From Asanoa ishikariensis (GTDB lineage: Bacteria; Actinomycetota; Actinomycetes; Mycobacteriales; Micromonosporaceae), in contig NZ_FNQB01000002.1 of assembly GCF_900107455.1 (NCBI RefSeq), positions 1,550,001 to 1,614,000 on the forward strand: 64,000 nucleotides of DNA. Direction: 5' to 3'. Position numbers and translations under genes: made by a program. The notes under the pieces were generated by a model. That model made no database searches. It saw only the letters and a program-made list of their open reading frames with translations, and was not told where the DNA came from. Of the stretch, positions 2,989 to 7,850 are shown in pieces. Position 1 is the stretch's first letter. The number at the start of each line of letters is the position of its first letter.

Positions 2989-3698
2989 AGTTTTCCTCCA
3001 CGTCGTTCGCGCACGGCCGGGATCAACACCGTCGCCAGGTACGGCAACGGCCCGTCGACCGCGTCGAGCGGTTGCACCTTCTCGTCGGGCAGGCCGAGGT
3101 GGCTGCCGACCACGGCACCGCGCCCGGCGGCCGCCTCGGCGATCGCCGCCATGTGCCGGCCGCCCTTGTAGACCACGACGGTGGCGTCGCGGGCCAGCGC
3201 CTCGTGCAGCGCTCCCAGGTCGCCGCGGGCCATCGGCAGCAGCACCAGCTCCTCGCCGCCCTCGACCAGCGGGCGTCCGGCCGCGGCGGCCAGCGCCTGC
3301 ATCGCGGTGATGCCCGGCACGGTCTCGAGCTCCACCGAGGGAACCAGCGCGCGGACGGTCTCCGCCAGATAGCCGAAGGTGGCGTACACGTTGGGGTCGC
3401 CGATCGTGGCGAACGCGGCGGTGCCGCCGGTCTCGCGCAGCCAGTCGGCCACCCGGCGGCCGGCCGCGTCCCAGTACTGCTCGCGCCGCCCGGCGTCCTC
3501 CCGCTCGTTGAGCGCGAAGACCAGCCGCTCGATCCGGTCGTGCGCGGCGTGGGCCCGGACGGTCGCCTCCGCCCGCCCGACATCGGCGGGGTCCAGCACC
3601 GGGACGAACACCCGCCCGGCGGTGGCCAGCGCCCGTACTCCCTTGAGCGTCATCAGCTCCGGATCACCGGGCCCGACGCCGACTCCGATCAGGCGCAT
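2985..3698 (-). CDS. cobI: CobI, precorrin-2 C20-methyltransferase
   Basis: 237 residues starting MRLIGVGVGPGDPELMTLKG, the exact N-terminal pattern of CobI/CbiL. The ATG at 3698 is chosen because a longer open frame upstream has no recognisable sequence and would run deep into cobB. It carries the TIGDPNVYATFGY motif and methylates C-20 of precorrin-2, the committed step to cobalamin. It overlaps the end of cobB by 10 bp and cobM by 4 bp. Confidence 0.92.
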   Translation of the reverse strand: MRLIGVGVGPGDPELMTLKGVRALATAGRVFVPVLDPADVGRAEATVRAHAAHDRIERLVFALNEREDAGRREQYWDAAGRRVADWLRETGGTAAFATIGDPNVYATFGYLAETVRALVPSVELETVPGITAMQALAAAAGRPLVEGGEELVLLPMARGDLGALHEALARDATVVVYKGGRHMAAIAEAAAGRGAVVGSHLGLPDEKVQPLDAVDGPLPYLATVLIPAVRERRGGKL

Positions 3699-5023
3699 GC
3701 CGCCACCAACCGTTCCGCGATCTCGGGCGTGCCCGCCCAGTGCAGGTGCAGATAGGAGGCGTGCACGTTGCCCGCCACGAAGCCTTCGGCCGGCCGACCG
3801 CGCCAGGCCCAGGCCGGCGTGGAGCCCGCCTCGGGTGTGGTCGCCGTCCGGTGGAACTCGTGCCCGGTGACCCGGGTGCCGACCGGCGCGAGCCAGCTCG
3901 GCGAGATGGCCACCGCGTCGCGGTAGCCGAGGGTGAGCCGGCCGGTCATCTCCGCGTCGGCCGGCAGCACGCCGCACATCGGCGCGCCGTCCAGGCTGCG
4001 AGCCAGCCAGAGCAGTCCGGCGCACTCGGCGACGATCGGCCCACCGGCGGCGGCCAGGCCGGCCACGGCGGCCCGGAGCGGGACGTTGGCCGACAGCTCG
4101 GACGCGTACACCTCGGGGAAGCCGCCGCCGACGACCAGCGCCGCCGTGCCGGGCGGCAGAGCCTCGTCGTGCAGTGGGTCGAGCGTGACGACCTCGGCGC
4201 CGGCCGCGGTGAGCAGCTCGGTGGTCTCGGCGTAGCCGAAGCTGAACGCCGGCCCACTGGCGACCGCCACCACGGGTCGGTGGGGGGCCGCGACGGCCGG
4301 CGGTTCCCAGGGCACGACATCCAGGGGCGGCGCCGTCGCGGCGGCCGCGGCAACCGCGTCCAAGTCCACACTGGACGCGATCAGCGACGCCAGAGCGGTC
4401 ATGGCGGCAGCGGCGTCGGCGCGGCGTTCCACCACAGGCACCAGGCCGAGGTGCCGCGACGGCGCGGCCACGGCATCGCTTCGGCGGAGCACACCCAGCA
4501 CCGGAGTGCCGGTCTCTTCCAGTGCCTCGCGCAGGATCGCCTCGTGCCGGTCGGAGCCGACCTTGTTGAGCACCACGCCGGCCAGTCGCAGCGTCGGGTC
4601 GAAGCCGCGGAAGCCGTGCACCAGGGCGGCCACCGAGCGGCCGACCGCGGAACCGTCGACCACCAGCAGCACCGGCGCCGACAGCAGCTTGGCCACCTGC
4701 GCGGTCGAGCCGTGCTCGCCCGCGTGCGCGCGGCCGTCGTACAGCCCCATGACGCCCTCGATGACCGCGAGGTCGGCGCCGGCGGCACCGTGCGCGAACA
4801 GCGGCGCGATCAGGTCCGTGCCGACCATCACCGGGTCGAGGTTGCGGCCCGGCCGGCCGCTGGCCAGCGCGTGGTAGCCGGGGTCGATGTAGTCCGGGCC
4901 GACCTTGAAGCCGGCCACGCTGCGGCCCCGGGCGGCGAACGCCGCCAGCAGCCCGCCGGCGACGGTCGTCTTGCCGTGCCCGGATGCCGGTGCGGCCACC
5001 ACGATCCGTGGGGTGGCTACCAC
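3689..5023 (-). CDS. cobB: Cobyrinic acid a,c-diamide synthase (CobB/CbiA)
   Basis: 444 residues from a GTG at 5023. The N-terminal MinD-like ATPase domain has a deviant P-loop (ASGHGKTT) and KVGPDYIDPGYH. The C-terminal glutamine amidotransferase domain has VVGGGFPEVY and the nucleophile Cys in AECAGLLWL. It amidates the a and c carboxylates with glutamine and ATP. The start was chosen because it gives the canonical N-terminus VVATPRIVVAAPASGHGK and overlaps the cobO stop by 7 bp, as is usual in this operon. Confidence 0.93.
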   Translation of the reverse strand: MVATPRIVVAAPASGHGKTTVAGGLLAAFAARGRSVAGFKVGPDYIDPGYHALASGRPGRNLDPVMVGTDLIAPLFAHGAAGADLAVIEGVMGLYDGRAHAGEHGSTAQVAKLLSAPVLLVVDGSAVGRSVAALVHGFRGFDPTLRLAGVVLNKVGSDRHEAILREALEETGTPVLGVLRRSDAVAAPSRHLGLVPVVERRADAAAAMTALASLIASSVDLDAVAAAAATAPPLDVVPWEPPAVAAPHRPVVAVASGPAFSFGYAETTELLTAAGAEVVTLDPLHDEALPPGTAALVVGGGFPEVYASELSANVPLRAAVAGLAAAGGPIVAECAGLLWLARSLDGAPMCGVLPADAEMTGRLTLGYRDAVAISPSWLAPVGTRVTGHEFHRTATTPEAGSTPAWAWRGRPAEGFVAGNVHASYLHLHWAGTPEIAERLVAACA

Positions 5024-5631
5024 TCGATGCCCTGCTGTCCCTTGCGGCCGGCGTCCATGGGGTGCTTGACCTTGGTCATCTCGGTGACCAGGTCGGCCGC
5101 GTCGACCAGCGCGGGCGCGGCGTCCCGCCCGGTGACCAGGACGTGCTGGTTGCCGGGCCGGTCGCGCAGCGTCGCCACGACCTCGGCGACGTCGACCCAA
5201 CCCCACTTCATCGGGTACGTGAACTCGTCGAGCACGTAGAACCGGTAACGCTCCTGCGCCAGGTCACGCTTGACCTGCGCCCAGCCCTCCGCGGCCTCGG
5301 CGGCGTGGTCGCGCTCGTCGCCCGGCCGGGCCAGCCACGACCAGCCCTCGCCCATCTTGTGCCAGGTCACGGGCGCGCCCTCACCGGTGTTCTCGTGATG
5401 GGCACCGAGTGCCTTGAGCGCGGTCTCCTCGCCGACCCGCCACTTCGGGCTCTTCACGAACTGGAAGACCACGATCGGCCAGCCCGCGTTCCAGGCGCGC
5501 AGCGCCATGCCGAACGCGGCCGTCGACTTGCCCTTGCCGGTGCCGGTGTGCACCGCCAGCAACGGCTGGCGGCGGCGCTCGCGAGTGGTCAGGCCGTCGT
5601 CGGGTACGCGCTCCACCTTGCCCTGTGGCAT
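5017..5631 (-). CDS. cobO: CobO/BtuR, cob(I)yrinate a,c-diamide adenosyltransferase
   Basis: 204 residues from the ATG at 5631 (MPQGKVERVPDDGLTTRER). The P-loop is GTGKGKSTAAFGMALR and the conserved YVLDEFTYPMKWGW segment is present. It transfers the adenosyl group from ATP to cob(I)yrinate diamide. A longer frame upstream would read into the chelatase gene and has no family resemblance, so it is rejected. It lies 4 bp after the chelatase stop and overlaps cobB. Confidence 0.94.
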   Translation of the reverse strand: MPQGKVERVPDDGLTTRERRRQPLLAVHTGTGKGKSTAAFGMALRAWNAGWPIVVFQFVKSPKWRVGEETALKALGAHHENTGEGAPVTWHKMGEGWSWLARPGDERDHAAEAAEGWAQVKRDLAQERYRFYVLDEFTYPMKWGWVDVAEVVATLRDRPGNQHVLVTGRDAAPALVDAADLVTEMTKVKHPMDAGRKGQQGIEW

Positions 5632-5635
5632 GGCC

Positions 5636-7636
5636 TCACACCGCCTTGAGGGTGGCCGCGGACAGCGCCGCGAGCGGGAGGTACTCGGCGTCCAGGGCCC
5701 CGGCCAGCGTGCGGGCCATGCCGAGCCGGACCGGGCCGCTCTCACAGTCGACCACCACGCTCGGCACTCCGGCCAGCGCCGGTGCGACGGTGCGTGGATC
5801 GGGGCCGCGGGTGTGGCGCCCGTCGGTGACGACGACCAACAGCGGCCGGCGCAGCGGGTCCCGGCGGCGTTCCCCGGCCAGCGTCCGGGCGGCCGCGGTG
5901 AGCCCGGCGGCCAGCGGCGTACGCCCGCCCGTGCGCAGGTCCGCCAGCCGGCGCACGCCGACCTCGTGGCTGGCCGTCGGGCGCAGCACCGTGGTCGCCT
6001 CGGCGTCCCGGAACGTGATCATGCCCACCGTGTCGCGGCGCTGGTACGCGTCGCGGAGCAGCGAGAGCACGGCGCTCTTGACGGCGGCCATCCGCGCGCG
6101 GGCGGCCATGGAGCCGGACGCGTCGACCACGAACAGCACCAGGTTCGCCTCCCGTCCGATGTGGACGGCCTCGCGCAGGTGGTGCTGTTGGATCGCAAGG
6201 AAGGGCCCCTTGTTAACGCTATGCGTTAATAGGGGTCCCTTCCTTGCGCTCTGGTCGCGGGCGGCGGCGAGCACGGTGTCCGGCAGGTGCACGGCGCCGA
6301 TCCGGCCGCGCGGTGCGCGCGAGCCGGCGACCCGGCCGCGCGCCGCGTAGGCCGGTGAGCGCCGGCCGCTGTGGCCGTAGCGGCCACGGGACCGGGCGGT
6401 CAGCGTTCGGGTCTTGTAGGCGCTGCCGACCGGTGCGGCGGCGGGCGGCGGGGGAGTGGCCTTCGGGCCACCCGGCCGGTCCTCGGCGTCGGGCGCGGCG
6501 GCCGCGTCGCCACCGCCGGGGCCGTTGTCGTCGGGCGGCGGGCTGTCGTCCGGGCCGGGACCGGAACCGGGACCGCCAGCGCCGTCCGGGTCGTCGTCCG
6601 GATCCGGGTCGCCGTCTGGGTCCGAGGCTCCGGCCTGGTCCAGCGCGTCGTCCAGTGCCTGCTGGTCGGCGCCCGGCGGGTCGAACGGGTCGCGCCGCCG
6701 CCGGTGCGGCAGCGCCAACCGGGCCGCGCCGTCGACCTCGTCGTCGGTGACCACGGAGCGGTCCCGCCAGGCGGCCAGCGCGACGGCCGTGCGGGCGATG
6801 ACGATGTCGGCGCGCAGGCCGTCGACCCCGTACGCCAGGCAGATCCGGGCGATCCGGTCCAGTGCGGCGTCCGGCAGGGTGACCTTCGGCAGCCGGGCGC
6901 GGGCCGCGACGATCCGCTCGGCCGTGGCCGCGTCCTCGTCGGCGAACCGGACCGCGAAGCCCTCGGGGTCGGCCTCGTACGCCAGCCGGCGGCGGACCAC
7001 CTCGGCCCGATCTCCGGGCTCCGTCGGCGCACCCACCTCGACCACCAGGCCGAACCGGTCGACGAGCTGCGGGCGCGGCTCGCCCTCCTCGGGGTTCATG
7101 GTGCCGACCAGCAGGAACCGAGCGGCGTGCCGGAGCGAGACGCCGTCGCGCTCGACGAACGCCCGGCCCATCGCGGCGGCGTCGAGCAGCAGGTCGACCA
7201 GGTGGTCGGGGAGCAGGTTGACCTCGTCGACGTAGAGCGCGCCACGGTGTGCGGCGGCCAGCAGCCCGGGCTCGTACGCCTTCGTGCCCTCGGTCAGGAT
7301 CCGCTGCACGTCGAGCGTGCCGACGACCCGGTCCTCGGTGGCCCCGACCGGCAGCTCGACCAGCCGCGACTGTCGCACGGAAGCCGTCACCCCGGCATGT
7401 GGCCCGTCCGGGCACGACGGATCGGGCGAGGACGGGTCGCAGGCGAACCGGCAGCCAGGCACCACGGCGATGTCCGGCAGCAGCGCCGCCAGGGCGCGCA
7501 CCATCGTCGACTTGGCGGTGCCCTTCTCGCCGCGCACGAGCACCCCGCCGATGACCGGCGAGACGGCGTTGAGCAGCAGGGCCTGGCGCAGGTCGGCCAG
7601 GCCGACGACGGCGGAGAACGGGTACGCGGAACTCAC
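5636..7636 (-). CDS. Fused ChlI/ChlD-type chelatase subunit (AAA+ ATPase plus vWA) for cobalt insertion
   Basis: 666 residues from a GTG at 7636. The AAA+ domain (about 1-320) has Walker A GEKGTAKST and Walker B ALYVDEVNLL. A long acidic Pro/Gly/Asp linker follows (about 350-460). The vWA domain starts near residue 500 with the MIDAS motif DASGSM at D505. With CobN next door it most likely replaces CobS/CobT as the ATPase of an aerobic cobaltochelatase; this role is inferred from context. It is the first gene after the cobalamin riboswitch. Residues about 464-481, just before the vWA domain, are encoded by a hairpin repeat inserted in frame (6195-6247). Confidence 0.9.
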   Translation of the reverse strand: MSSAYPFSAVVGLADLRQALLLNAVSPVIGGVLVRGEKGTAKSTMVRALAALLPDIAVVPGCRFACDPSSPDPSCPDGPHAGVTASVRQSRLVELPVGATEDRVVGTLDVQRILTEGTKAYEPGLLAAAHRGALYVDEVNLLPDHLVDLLLDAAAMGRAFVERDGVSLRHAARFLLVGTMNPEEGEPRPQLVDRFGLVVEVGAPTEPGDRAEVVRRRLAYEADPEGFAVRFADEDAATAERIVAARARLPKVTLPDAALDRIARICLAYGVDGLRADIVIARTAVALAAWRDRSVVTDDEVDGAARLALPHRRRRDPFDPPGADQQALDDALDQAGASDPDGDPDPDDDPDGAGGPGSGPGPDDSPPPDDNGPGGGDAAAAPDAEDRPGGPKATPPPPAAAPVGSAYKTRTLTARSRGRYGHSGRRSPAYAARGRVAGSRAPRGRIGAVHLPDTVLAAARDQSARKGPLLTHSVNKGPFLAIQQHHLREAVHIGREANLVLFVVDASGSMAARARMAAVKSAVLSLLRDAYQRRDTVGMITFRDAEATTVLRPTASHEVGVRRLADLRTGGRTPLAAGLTAAARTLAGERRRDPLRRPLLVVVTDGRHTRGPDPRTVAPALAGVPSVVVDCESGPVRLGMARTLAGALDAEYLPLAALSAATLKAV
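6195..6247. repeat. 53-bp near-perfect palindrome inside the chelatase gene
   Basis: Two 25-nt arms (6195-6219 and 6223-6247) around a 3-nt loop match at 22 of 25 positions. The outer 11 bp (GCAAGGAAGGG) and inner 7 bp (TTAACGC) pair perfectly. It is AT-richer in the centre than the surrounding gene and adds about 18 residues in frame (ARKGPLLTHSVNKGPFLA) between linker and vWA domain. This looks like a small mobile palindromic unit. I recall related hairpins between genes in Micromonosporaceae but cannot check that here. Confidence 0.85.
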
Positions 7637-7659: not shown

Positions 7660-7850
7660 CCACGCCCGCGATGGTTCTACGGCGAGCGGCCGAGTGTCCT
7701 GGCTCCCGGATCGACGCTTCCCCTCGGCCTTCCAGCCCGTGGTGGGCCGTGACCATCAGGTGAGGGTTTGCTACCCGGTGACAGTGGCGGGACCGCCCCG
7801 GAATCGCACCGGGTTCCTCCGCACCGCTCGTTCAACACTGTGACCCACTG
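7660..7850 (-). promoter_or_regulatory. Cobalamin riboswitch upstream of the chelatase gene
   Basis: Read on the minus strand, the region contains the cobalamin-element signatures: CCGGTGCGATTCCGGGGCGG followed by TCCCGCCACTGT, then further on GGGAGCCAGGACACT, a B12-box-like segment. A CG-rich hairpin (7651-7671, arms CGCGGG/CCCGCG) sits just before AAGGGA, the ribosome site of the GTG at 7636. Control of translation initiation is therefore likely (inference). It lies after cobN and before the chelatase gene, so it is internal to the cob gene series. Ends are approximate. Confidence 0.92.

Follow-up and report, generated by a model that had tools for sequence, protein, structure and literature searches.

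The gene treated here encodes a ChlI/ChlD-type chelatase and lies in a cobalamin neighbourhood of the Asanoa ishikariensis genome, inside a window of 64,000 nucleotides (the whole stretch of DNA analysed, from whose first letter all positions are counted). Its product is a fusion whose best named relatives belong to Catenuloplanes (69% identity) and Actinoplanes (68%), which makes Micromonosporaceae the probable taxonomic family. Upstream of it, a cobalamin riboswitch separates it from a CobN-type gene, and a palindromic element sits within its coding sequence. The features are as follows:

5636..7636, minus strand: host gene, AAA (ChlI-type) + linker + VWA (ChlD-type) fusion; longest open reading frame to 7756
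5017..5745, minus strand: downstream gene, ATP:corrinoid adenosyltransferase (CobO/BtuR); open reading frame as listed, start provisional
3689..5206, minus strand: further downstream gene, CobB/CbiA-type amidotransferase; open reading frame as listed, start provisional
7671..7843, minus strand: cobalamin riboswitch, upstream of the ChlI/ChlD gene; 92.5 bits, gathering score 31.5
6195..6247, no strand: palindromic element of the G dialect (see below), in frame in the coding sequence; arms extend to 6191-6251
6198..6219, plus strand: first unit, exact match to AGGAASGGNCCSTTNNTAACGC
6220..6222, no strand: loop TAT, 3 nt
6223..6244, minus strand: second unit, inverted, one mismatch against the unit pattern

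The two arms of the element (6195-6219 and 6223-6247) are 25 nt each and pair at 22 of 25 positions around the loop TAT; in a repeat search they reach 6191-6251 at 86%. With a GC content of 0.55, falling to 0.44 in its centre, the element stands apart from the window as a whole (0.71). Its single-strand fold has an energy of -42.0 kcal/mol as against -15.5 ± 2.9 for shuffled versions (z = -9.1; none of 200 shuffles equalled it), and comparable hairpins, i.e. those in which 25-nt arms form 22 or more pairs around a loop of 3-8 nt, occur in two placements in the window and in none of 20 trinucleotide-block shuffles. Pairing count, fold and composition thus bear out the 53-bp hairpin with a 3-nt loop and an AT-richer centre that a preliminary description had read from the letters, and a chance palindrome is ruled out by the fold z-score and the shuffle counts together with the multi-copy BLAST matches given below. 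A search for known RNA families returned none at the element; elsewhere in the stretch there is a sub-threshold mir-503 match (19.7 versus 54 bits), which we take as chance. As to the suggested trimming of downstream cob expression, which is hypothetical, the hairpin in the ChlI/ChlD mRNA would be expected to be opened by translating ribosomes.

The ChlI/ChlD coding sequence stays open across the element, which makes up residues 504-520 (ARKGPLLTHSVNKGPFL) counted from the ATG at 7756, or 464-480 counted from the start at 7636, and directly precedes the VWA domain (VWA_2, residues 540-646 of the long form). Orthologues were compared between the source genome (G000, 9.1 Mb) and five other genomes of the genus (G001-G005): G000, G003 and G004 carry the insert, which is missing, as the preliminary description had anticipated for related genomes, from the other three. 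Relative to the element-free G002, G000 is longer here by a net 39 nt (13 codons), and G003 and G004 by 48 nt each (16 codons). This is less than the length of the element, because the surrounding linker differs too, and no clean 54-nt insertion is visible today. The earlier claim of an in-frame insert stands, with 17 residues encoded and a smaller net gain. A left junction AGAGCGC is common to the three carriers and missing from the three insert-free genomes, so that the copy probably predates the split of G000 from G003/G004; it probably had a common origin followed by losses in G001, G002 and G005, two separate gains being the less likely alternative. At the same linker position, G001 (L051) holds an in-frame partial duplication of neighbouring coding sequence (RIGAVHLPDT) and no repeat, from which it appears that this linker tolerates diverse insertions. 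A search of 1.66 Mb from 80 named ChlI/ChlD loci, allowing up to two mismatches, found no repeat unit.

The element is one of many. A BLAST search with it gave 65 rows at about 40 places in its own genome, which is a minimum because 40 of the 82 first candidates were scored and a palindrome yields one row per strand; that the palindrome is a multi-copy unit, as had been proposed, is thereby confirmed. Neither observation that would have spoken against the preliminary description, a segment common to all orthologues or a genome with no further copies, was made. The basic unit of about 22 nt reads AGGAASGGNCCSTT-NN-TAACGC, with an inner part, AASGGNCCSTT, that is itself palindromic, and it is arranged in inverted pairs (the 53-bp hairpin), in direct pairs at a distance of about 31 bp, separated by TTTCCGCAT, or in longer arrays. 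When 20 chosen 49-nt palindromes (17 distinct) were aligned without gaps, their arms were paired in 99.2% of cells, with double changes that keep the pairing in 6 of 23 pairs. Of 300 genomes of the taxonomic family, 52 contain the exact unit pattern (1 to 132 units each, spread over 6 of 44 genera) and 248 are unit-free; the reversed pattern, used as a control, was found in none of the 300. In a class-wide sample of 394 genomes, two were positive, both among the three that belong to the family (0 of 391 outside it). The element had no match in phage and plasmid collections at E 0.01 in distant mode, and carriage by either is thus not supported.

Where these copies lie relative to genes was counted for 123 unit clusters in loci read from five genomes, on our own gene predictions and with orthologous copies counted separately. 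Only 9 clusters lie inside predicted genes. The other 114 agree with the earlier statement that such units usually sit between genes, and their gaps are convergent in 87 cases, tandem in 25 and divergent in 2, i.e. 112 of 114 lie in convergent or tandem gaps and mainly downstream of genes. Other neighbouring gene pairs are convergent in 101 of 650 cases (Fisher p = 9e-38 against 87/114), and of the 174 cluster ends on the side of a convergent gene, 143 are found -7 to 9 nt from the stop codon of that gene. Among the 9 intragenic clusters, L037 falls in the last codons of a gene, L134 is a single unit with three mismatches and probably spurious, and L090, L130 and the copy in the window represent one site. 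Glyoxalase-fold proteins, family-18 hydrolases and a response regulator recur as neighbours of the repeats, and a scan of 5 of the 244 neighbour proteins for a REPtron-like companion gene found no transposase.

Such positions could suggest ordinary bidirectional terminators of convergent genes, kept by selection, with the ChlI/ChlD copy as a stray. Copies close behind the stop codons on both sides, the strong hairpin and the pairing kept via double changes would all fit, but no T-tract terminator-like site was called at the copy in the window (none within 5600-6800), and the sequence shared by the copies, the in-frame copies and the genome-wide dialect described below would be left unexplained. 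We regard this explanation as very improbable.

In-frame copies are in fact not confined to the chelatase, so that the notion of a repeat turned into protein holds for ChlI/ChlD but does not make this gene unique. One site lies in a gene that we take to be LuxR-like from the general look of its product, the family evidence consisting of a weak TPR similarity; G000, G003 and G005 carry the repeat there at the same place, in the same frame, which is open in all three, and in the same direct (++) arrangement with a 9-nt spacer. A second lies in pyrD (DHO_dh, E = 2e-78), where the copies of G002 and G003 are complete and that of G000 is degenerate. In the pyrD genes of G004, G001 and G005 (L252, L254 and L255), the place of the repeat holds insertions of very different length, which are Gly-, Pro- and Ala-rich where read and leave the frame open in the stretches read. 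Two more in-frame copies, one in a carboxyltransferase gene (L127) and the other in a gene whose product has a weak laminin-G match (L094), were seen in G003 alone among the six genomes.

Whether the repeats move can be judged at 15 sites chosen for orthologue comparison, of which 14, all but L151, were aligned; contig ends truncate L281 and L305, and L037 was compared with G002 alone. At up to four mismatches, the unit was present in 7 of 60 orthologous stretches and absent from 53, which also speaks against terminators kept by selection. L095, about four codons before a gene's stop, is filled in G003 alone of the six genomes; of the other five, three read straight through this point while G000 and G002 carry 6 nt more. 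L008, L010, L011, L020 and L046 are filled in G000 and empty in the 3 to 5 others compared at each, and L012 is filled in G000 alone of four genomes compared (its own included). Copies of the family have thus arisen in single lineages or were lost in all others.

At L012, a perfect 8-bp duplication, CTAGTCCG, flanks the element on both sides and occurs once in the element-free G002, which is what a classical MITE moved by a DDE transposase with an 8-bp target duplication would leave behind. This origin is nevertheless hardly credible for the family, since flank repeats of 75 palindromes were no commoner than in shuffled pairs, with no general target duplication found, and since the single-lineage copies L046 and L020 showed no duplication on inspection. 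RAYT transposases are the common explanation for REP-like repeats. A Y1 transposase (PF01797) is absent from G001-G005, however, and G000 has a single match, with an internal stop (G000:C6:310197-310409, L170). Across the 300 family genomes, Y1 transposases are found in 8 of 52 unit-bearing and 76 of 248 unit-free genomes, i.e. less often than expected in the former (Fisher p = 0.027), and REP spread driven by a RAYT was therefore rejected.

The most conspicuous property of the family is that its spelling differs between genomes. Exact units with GGGNCCC (G-type) number 50, 3, 2, 0, 0 and 2 in G000 to G005, and those with CGGNCCG (C-type) 0, 0, 0, 78, 40 and 62, which amounts to a G:C ratio of 55:0 in G000-G002 and 2:180 in G003-G005; by difference from the total unit count, there are also 2 mixed units in G003 and 3 in G005. 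Because copies were collected mainly with a C-type query in G003-G005 and a G-type query in G000, the dialect claim rests on these exact pattern counts. C-type units were found in 3 of 354 family genomes, so that this spelling is probably the derived one. A tree of the cob locus (4.8 kb, unrooted) sets G003, G004 and G005 apart from G000, G001 and G002 with a support of 0.913, a grouping that fits a single dialect switch. The central base of the unit is A or T in about 90% of cases in the C-type genomes and any of the four bases in the G-type genomes, and the dialects thus differ beyond the S positions of AASGGNCCSTT. Outside the counted elements, GGGNCCC occurs 16 times per 100 kb in G000 and 19, 28 and 20 times in G003, G004 and G005 (loci read); the motif is therefore not avoided in C-type genomes, and restriction avoidance is not supported as the cause of the dialects.

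At orthologous sites, the dialect differs between the clades while the arrangement and often the flanks agree. For 20 units paired by hand between clades at 8 such sites, 35 of 40 comparisons at S positions show a difference, as against 24 of 340 at the other fixed positions; omitting L030/L167, the one site that is unswitched, gives 35 of 36 and 23 of 306. Automatic pairing by unit order had given 35/44 at S and 43/374 at other positions between clades, and 8/72 and 37/612 within them, but it omitted L019/L122 and L039/L125, the first units of which are oriented differently, and took in spurious pyrD pairs; in the hand recount of between-clade pairs, the spurious pyrD stretches were removed and L030/L167 was kept. 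The 8 within-clade S differences divide equally (4 each) between the spurious pyrD pairs and L098/L166, a site at which G005 has kept the G-type spelling.

Seven of the 8 sites scored carry the dialect of their own genome, including the in-frame copies in ChlI/ChlD, the LuxR-like gene and pyrD, and the dialect has therefore probably changed in place and in concert, a reading that draws on orthologous sites with common arrangement and flanks. L027 and its counterpart L158 in G005 have the same three-unit array and the same left flank, and L158 holds a mixed unit, CGGGCCC, which suggests an intermediate of a stepwise change. In addition, G005 retains G-type remnants, a nearly intact one at L167 and a degenerate one with mismatches at L166, so that the change is incomplete there. 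The history of the genus thus probably comprises one switch, plus an intermediate and leftovers in G005. Selection on terminators predicts neither a common spelling nor a change inside genes.

A different way to arrive at this picture would be separate invasions, in which elements re-enter the same hot spots and orthologous copies are in truth independent insertions of different dialects. Two orthologous intergenic gaps do show different arrangements between the clades: L013 is +- and L289 -+, and likewise L017 is +- where L291 and L295 are -+. The -+ arrangements at L289, L291 and L295 contain GTTAGGAACGG...CCGTTCCTAAC, and these gaps look as if they had been hit or rearranged twice. The ChlI/ChlD insert, too, is patchy on the tree. 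Against separate entries, however, stand the flank common to the ChlI/ChlD copies of three genomes, the array and left flank common to L027 and L158, and the LuxR-like site with its constancy of place, frame, arrangement and spacer, and we consider such repeated re-entry quite improbable as a general explanation.

Another alternative is co-evolution with a DNA-binding protein (a nucleoid, translocation or uptake factor or a domesticated transposase) which would read AASGGNCCSTT and the specificity of which would have changed once, with selection then rewriting the sites. This could account for a dialect change that preserves both the inner palindrome and the arm pairing and that includes direct-repeat copies (in the LuxR-like gene), and it would have a parallel in the DUS dialects of Neisseria, with their clade spelling, terminator-associated inverted pairs and intragenic copies (as far as the available portion of PMC3630211 goes). 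Yet the intragenic copies switched as well, where a useful function is hard to see; no genome has more than 132 exact units, and presence is patchy, 248 of 300 family genomes having none; and there is no candidate for the reader protein. Such co-evolution thus seems rather unlikely, though it deserves to be kept in mind. That translated copies changed too made us favour copy-to-copy templated conversion between dispersed repeats of roughly 50 bp, i.e. molecular drive, perhaps operating via the machinery that spreads the unit; for this mechanism itself we see the chances as about evenly balanced.

Overall, we would propose that the repeat represents a REP-like, apparently non-autonomous mobile family of palindromes of one actinobacterial family, copies of which survive at the 3' ends of genes or in frame, while other insertions were probably purged by selection. 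One copy would have entered the length-variable linker of ChlI/ChlD, probably before G000 and G003/G004 separated, and 17 residues of the linker now derive from it. At a later time the dispersed copies, the intragenic ones included, would have gone from GGGNCCC to CGGNCCG in place, probably in the ancestor of G003, G004 and G005. Taken as a whole, this REP-like scenario of entry into the linker and later in-place change is the one we consider reasonably probable. It is weakened by the fact that no mobilizing enzyme was identified for the family, that the ChlI/ChlD insert needs several losses under a single ancestry, that the pyrD copy of G000 is degenerate, and that the species tree is that of one unrooted 4.8-kb locus, in which a root within the C-type side would need a reversal.

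For the host gene, this means that a repeat became 17 residues of the linker of a B12 chelatase, in an insert carried by three species. For the family, the boldest claim is that on one branch nearly every copy, including the translated ones in the pyrD, LuxR-like and chelatase genes, was rewritten in place from GGGNCCC to CGGNCCG, which we put forward tentatively, with the balance leaning slightly against it. If true, it would imply either an undescribed homogenizing process acting on units of about 22 nt or an undescribed unit-reading protein with changed specificity. Since the in-frame copies are unlikely to act as transcription terminators, they offer a means of telling drive apart from selection for that function. 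Six genomes of one genus, with a REP look-alike family that has no RAYT association and whose common spelling differs between clades at the same sites, thus offer a natural experiment on the concerted evolution of short dispersed repeats in bacteria.

In a limited set of literature, the arm sequences of the repeat matched no paper, and, judged by title among the matches listed, with few subscription papers covered, none deals with such repeats in this actinobacterial family; the accessible parts of PMC3364876, PMC12306157, PMC8266576 and PMC2267715 do not mention them. Among known systems, REP elements come closest: according to the part of PMC3733652 available, they lie predominantly between convergent or unidirectional genes, are in some cases intragenic and may supply stop codons with their ends. 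With REP, BIME and REPIN sequences as described there, the present family shares short multi-copy palindromes, inverted and direct pairs and a location mainly downstream of genes. It differs from them in that a GTAG tag does not appear in the unit consensus (column frequencies of units and outer flanks), in that Y1 transposases are unassociated with the presence of units, and in its clade-wide dialects at orthologous sites.

Rickettsia palindromic elements are in-frame insertions in protein-coding genes (PMC10969869 and PMC3733652, in the portions available), and in-frame insertion is also what links them to the present family, in ChlI/ChlD, the LuxR-like gene, pyrD, L094 and L127. The hosts, however, are unrelated, the unit consensus here has no CGTC tag, most copies are extragenic, and dialects set the family apart. 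The Neisseria DUS, for which the accessible part of PMC3630211 gives counts of 1543 to 3770 copies, resembles it as a short dispersed repeat with clade-specific spelling, terminator-associated inverted pairs and intragenic copies; here, in contrast, there are at most 132 exact units per genome (exact pattern) rather than more than 1000, and the unit is longer, two-part and patchy in its presence. The repeat family is thus a new member of the REP/RPE kind, with no earlier description in the limited literature searched. In-frame palindromes and REP-like palindromes downstream of genes are already known; what is new is the combination of genome-wide dialects, visible at orthologous sites, with the lack of an associated RAYT.
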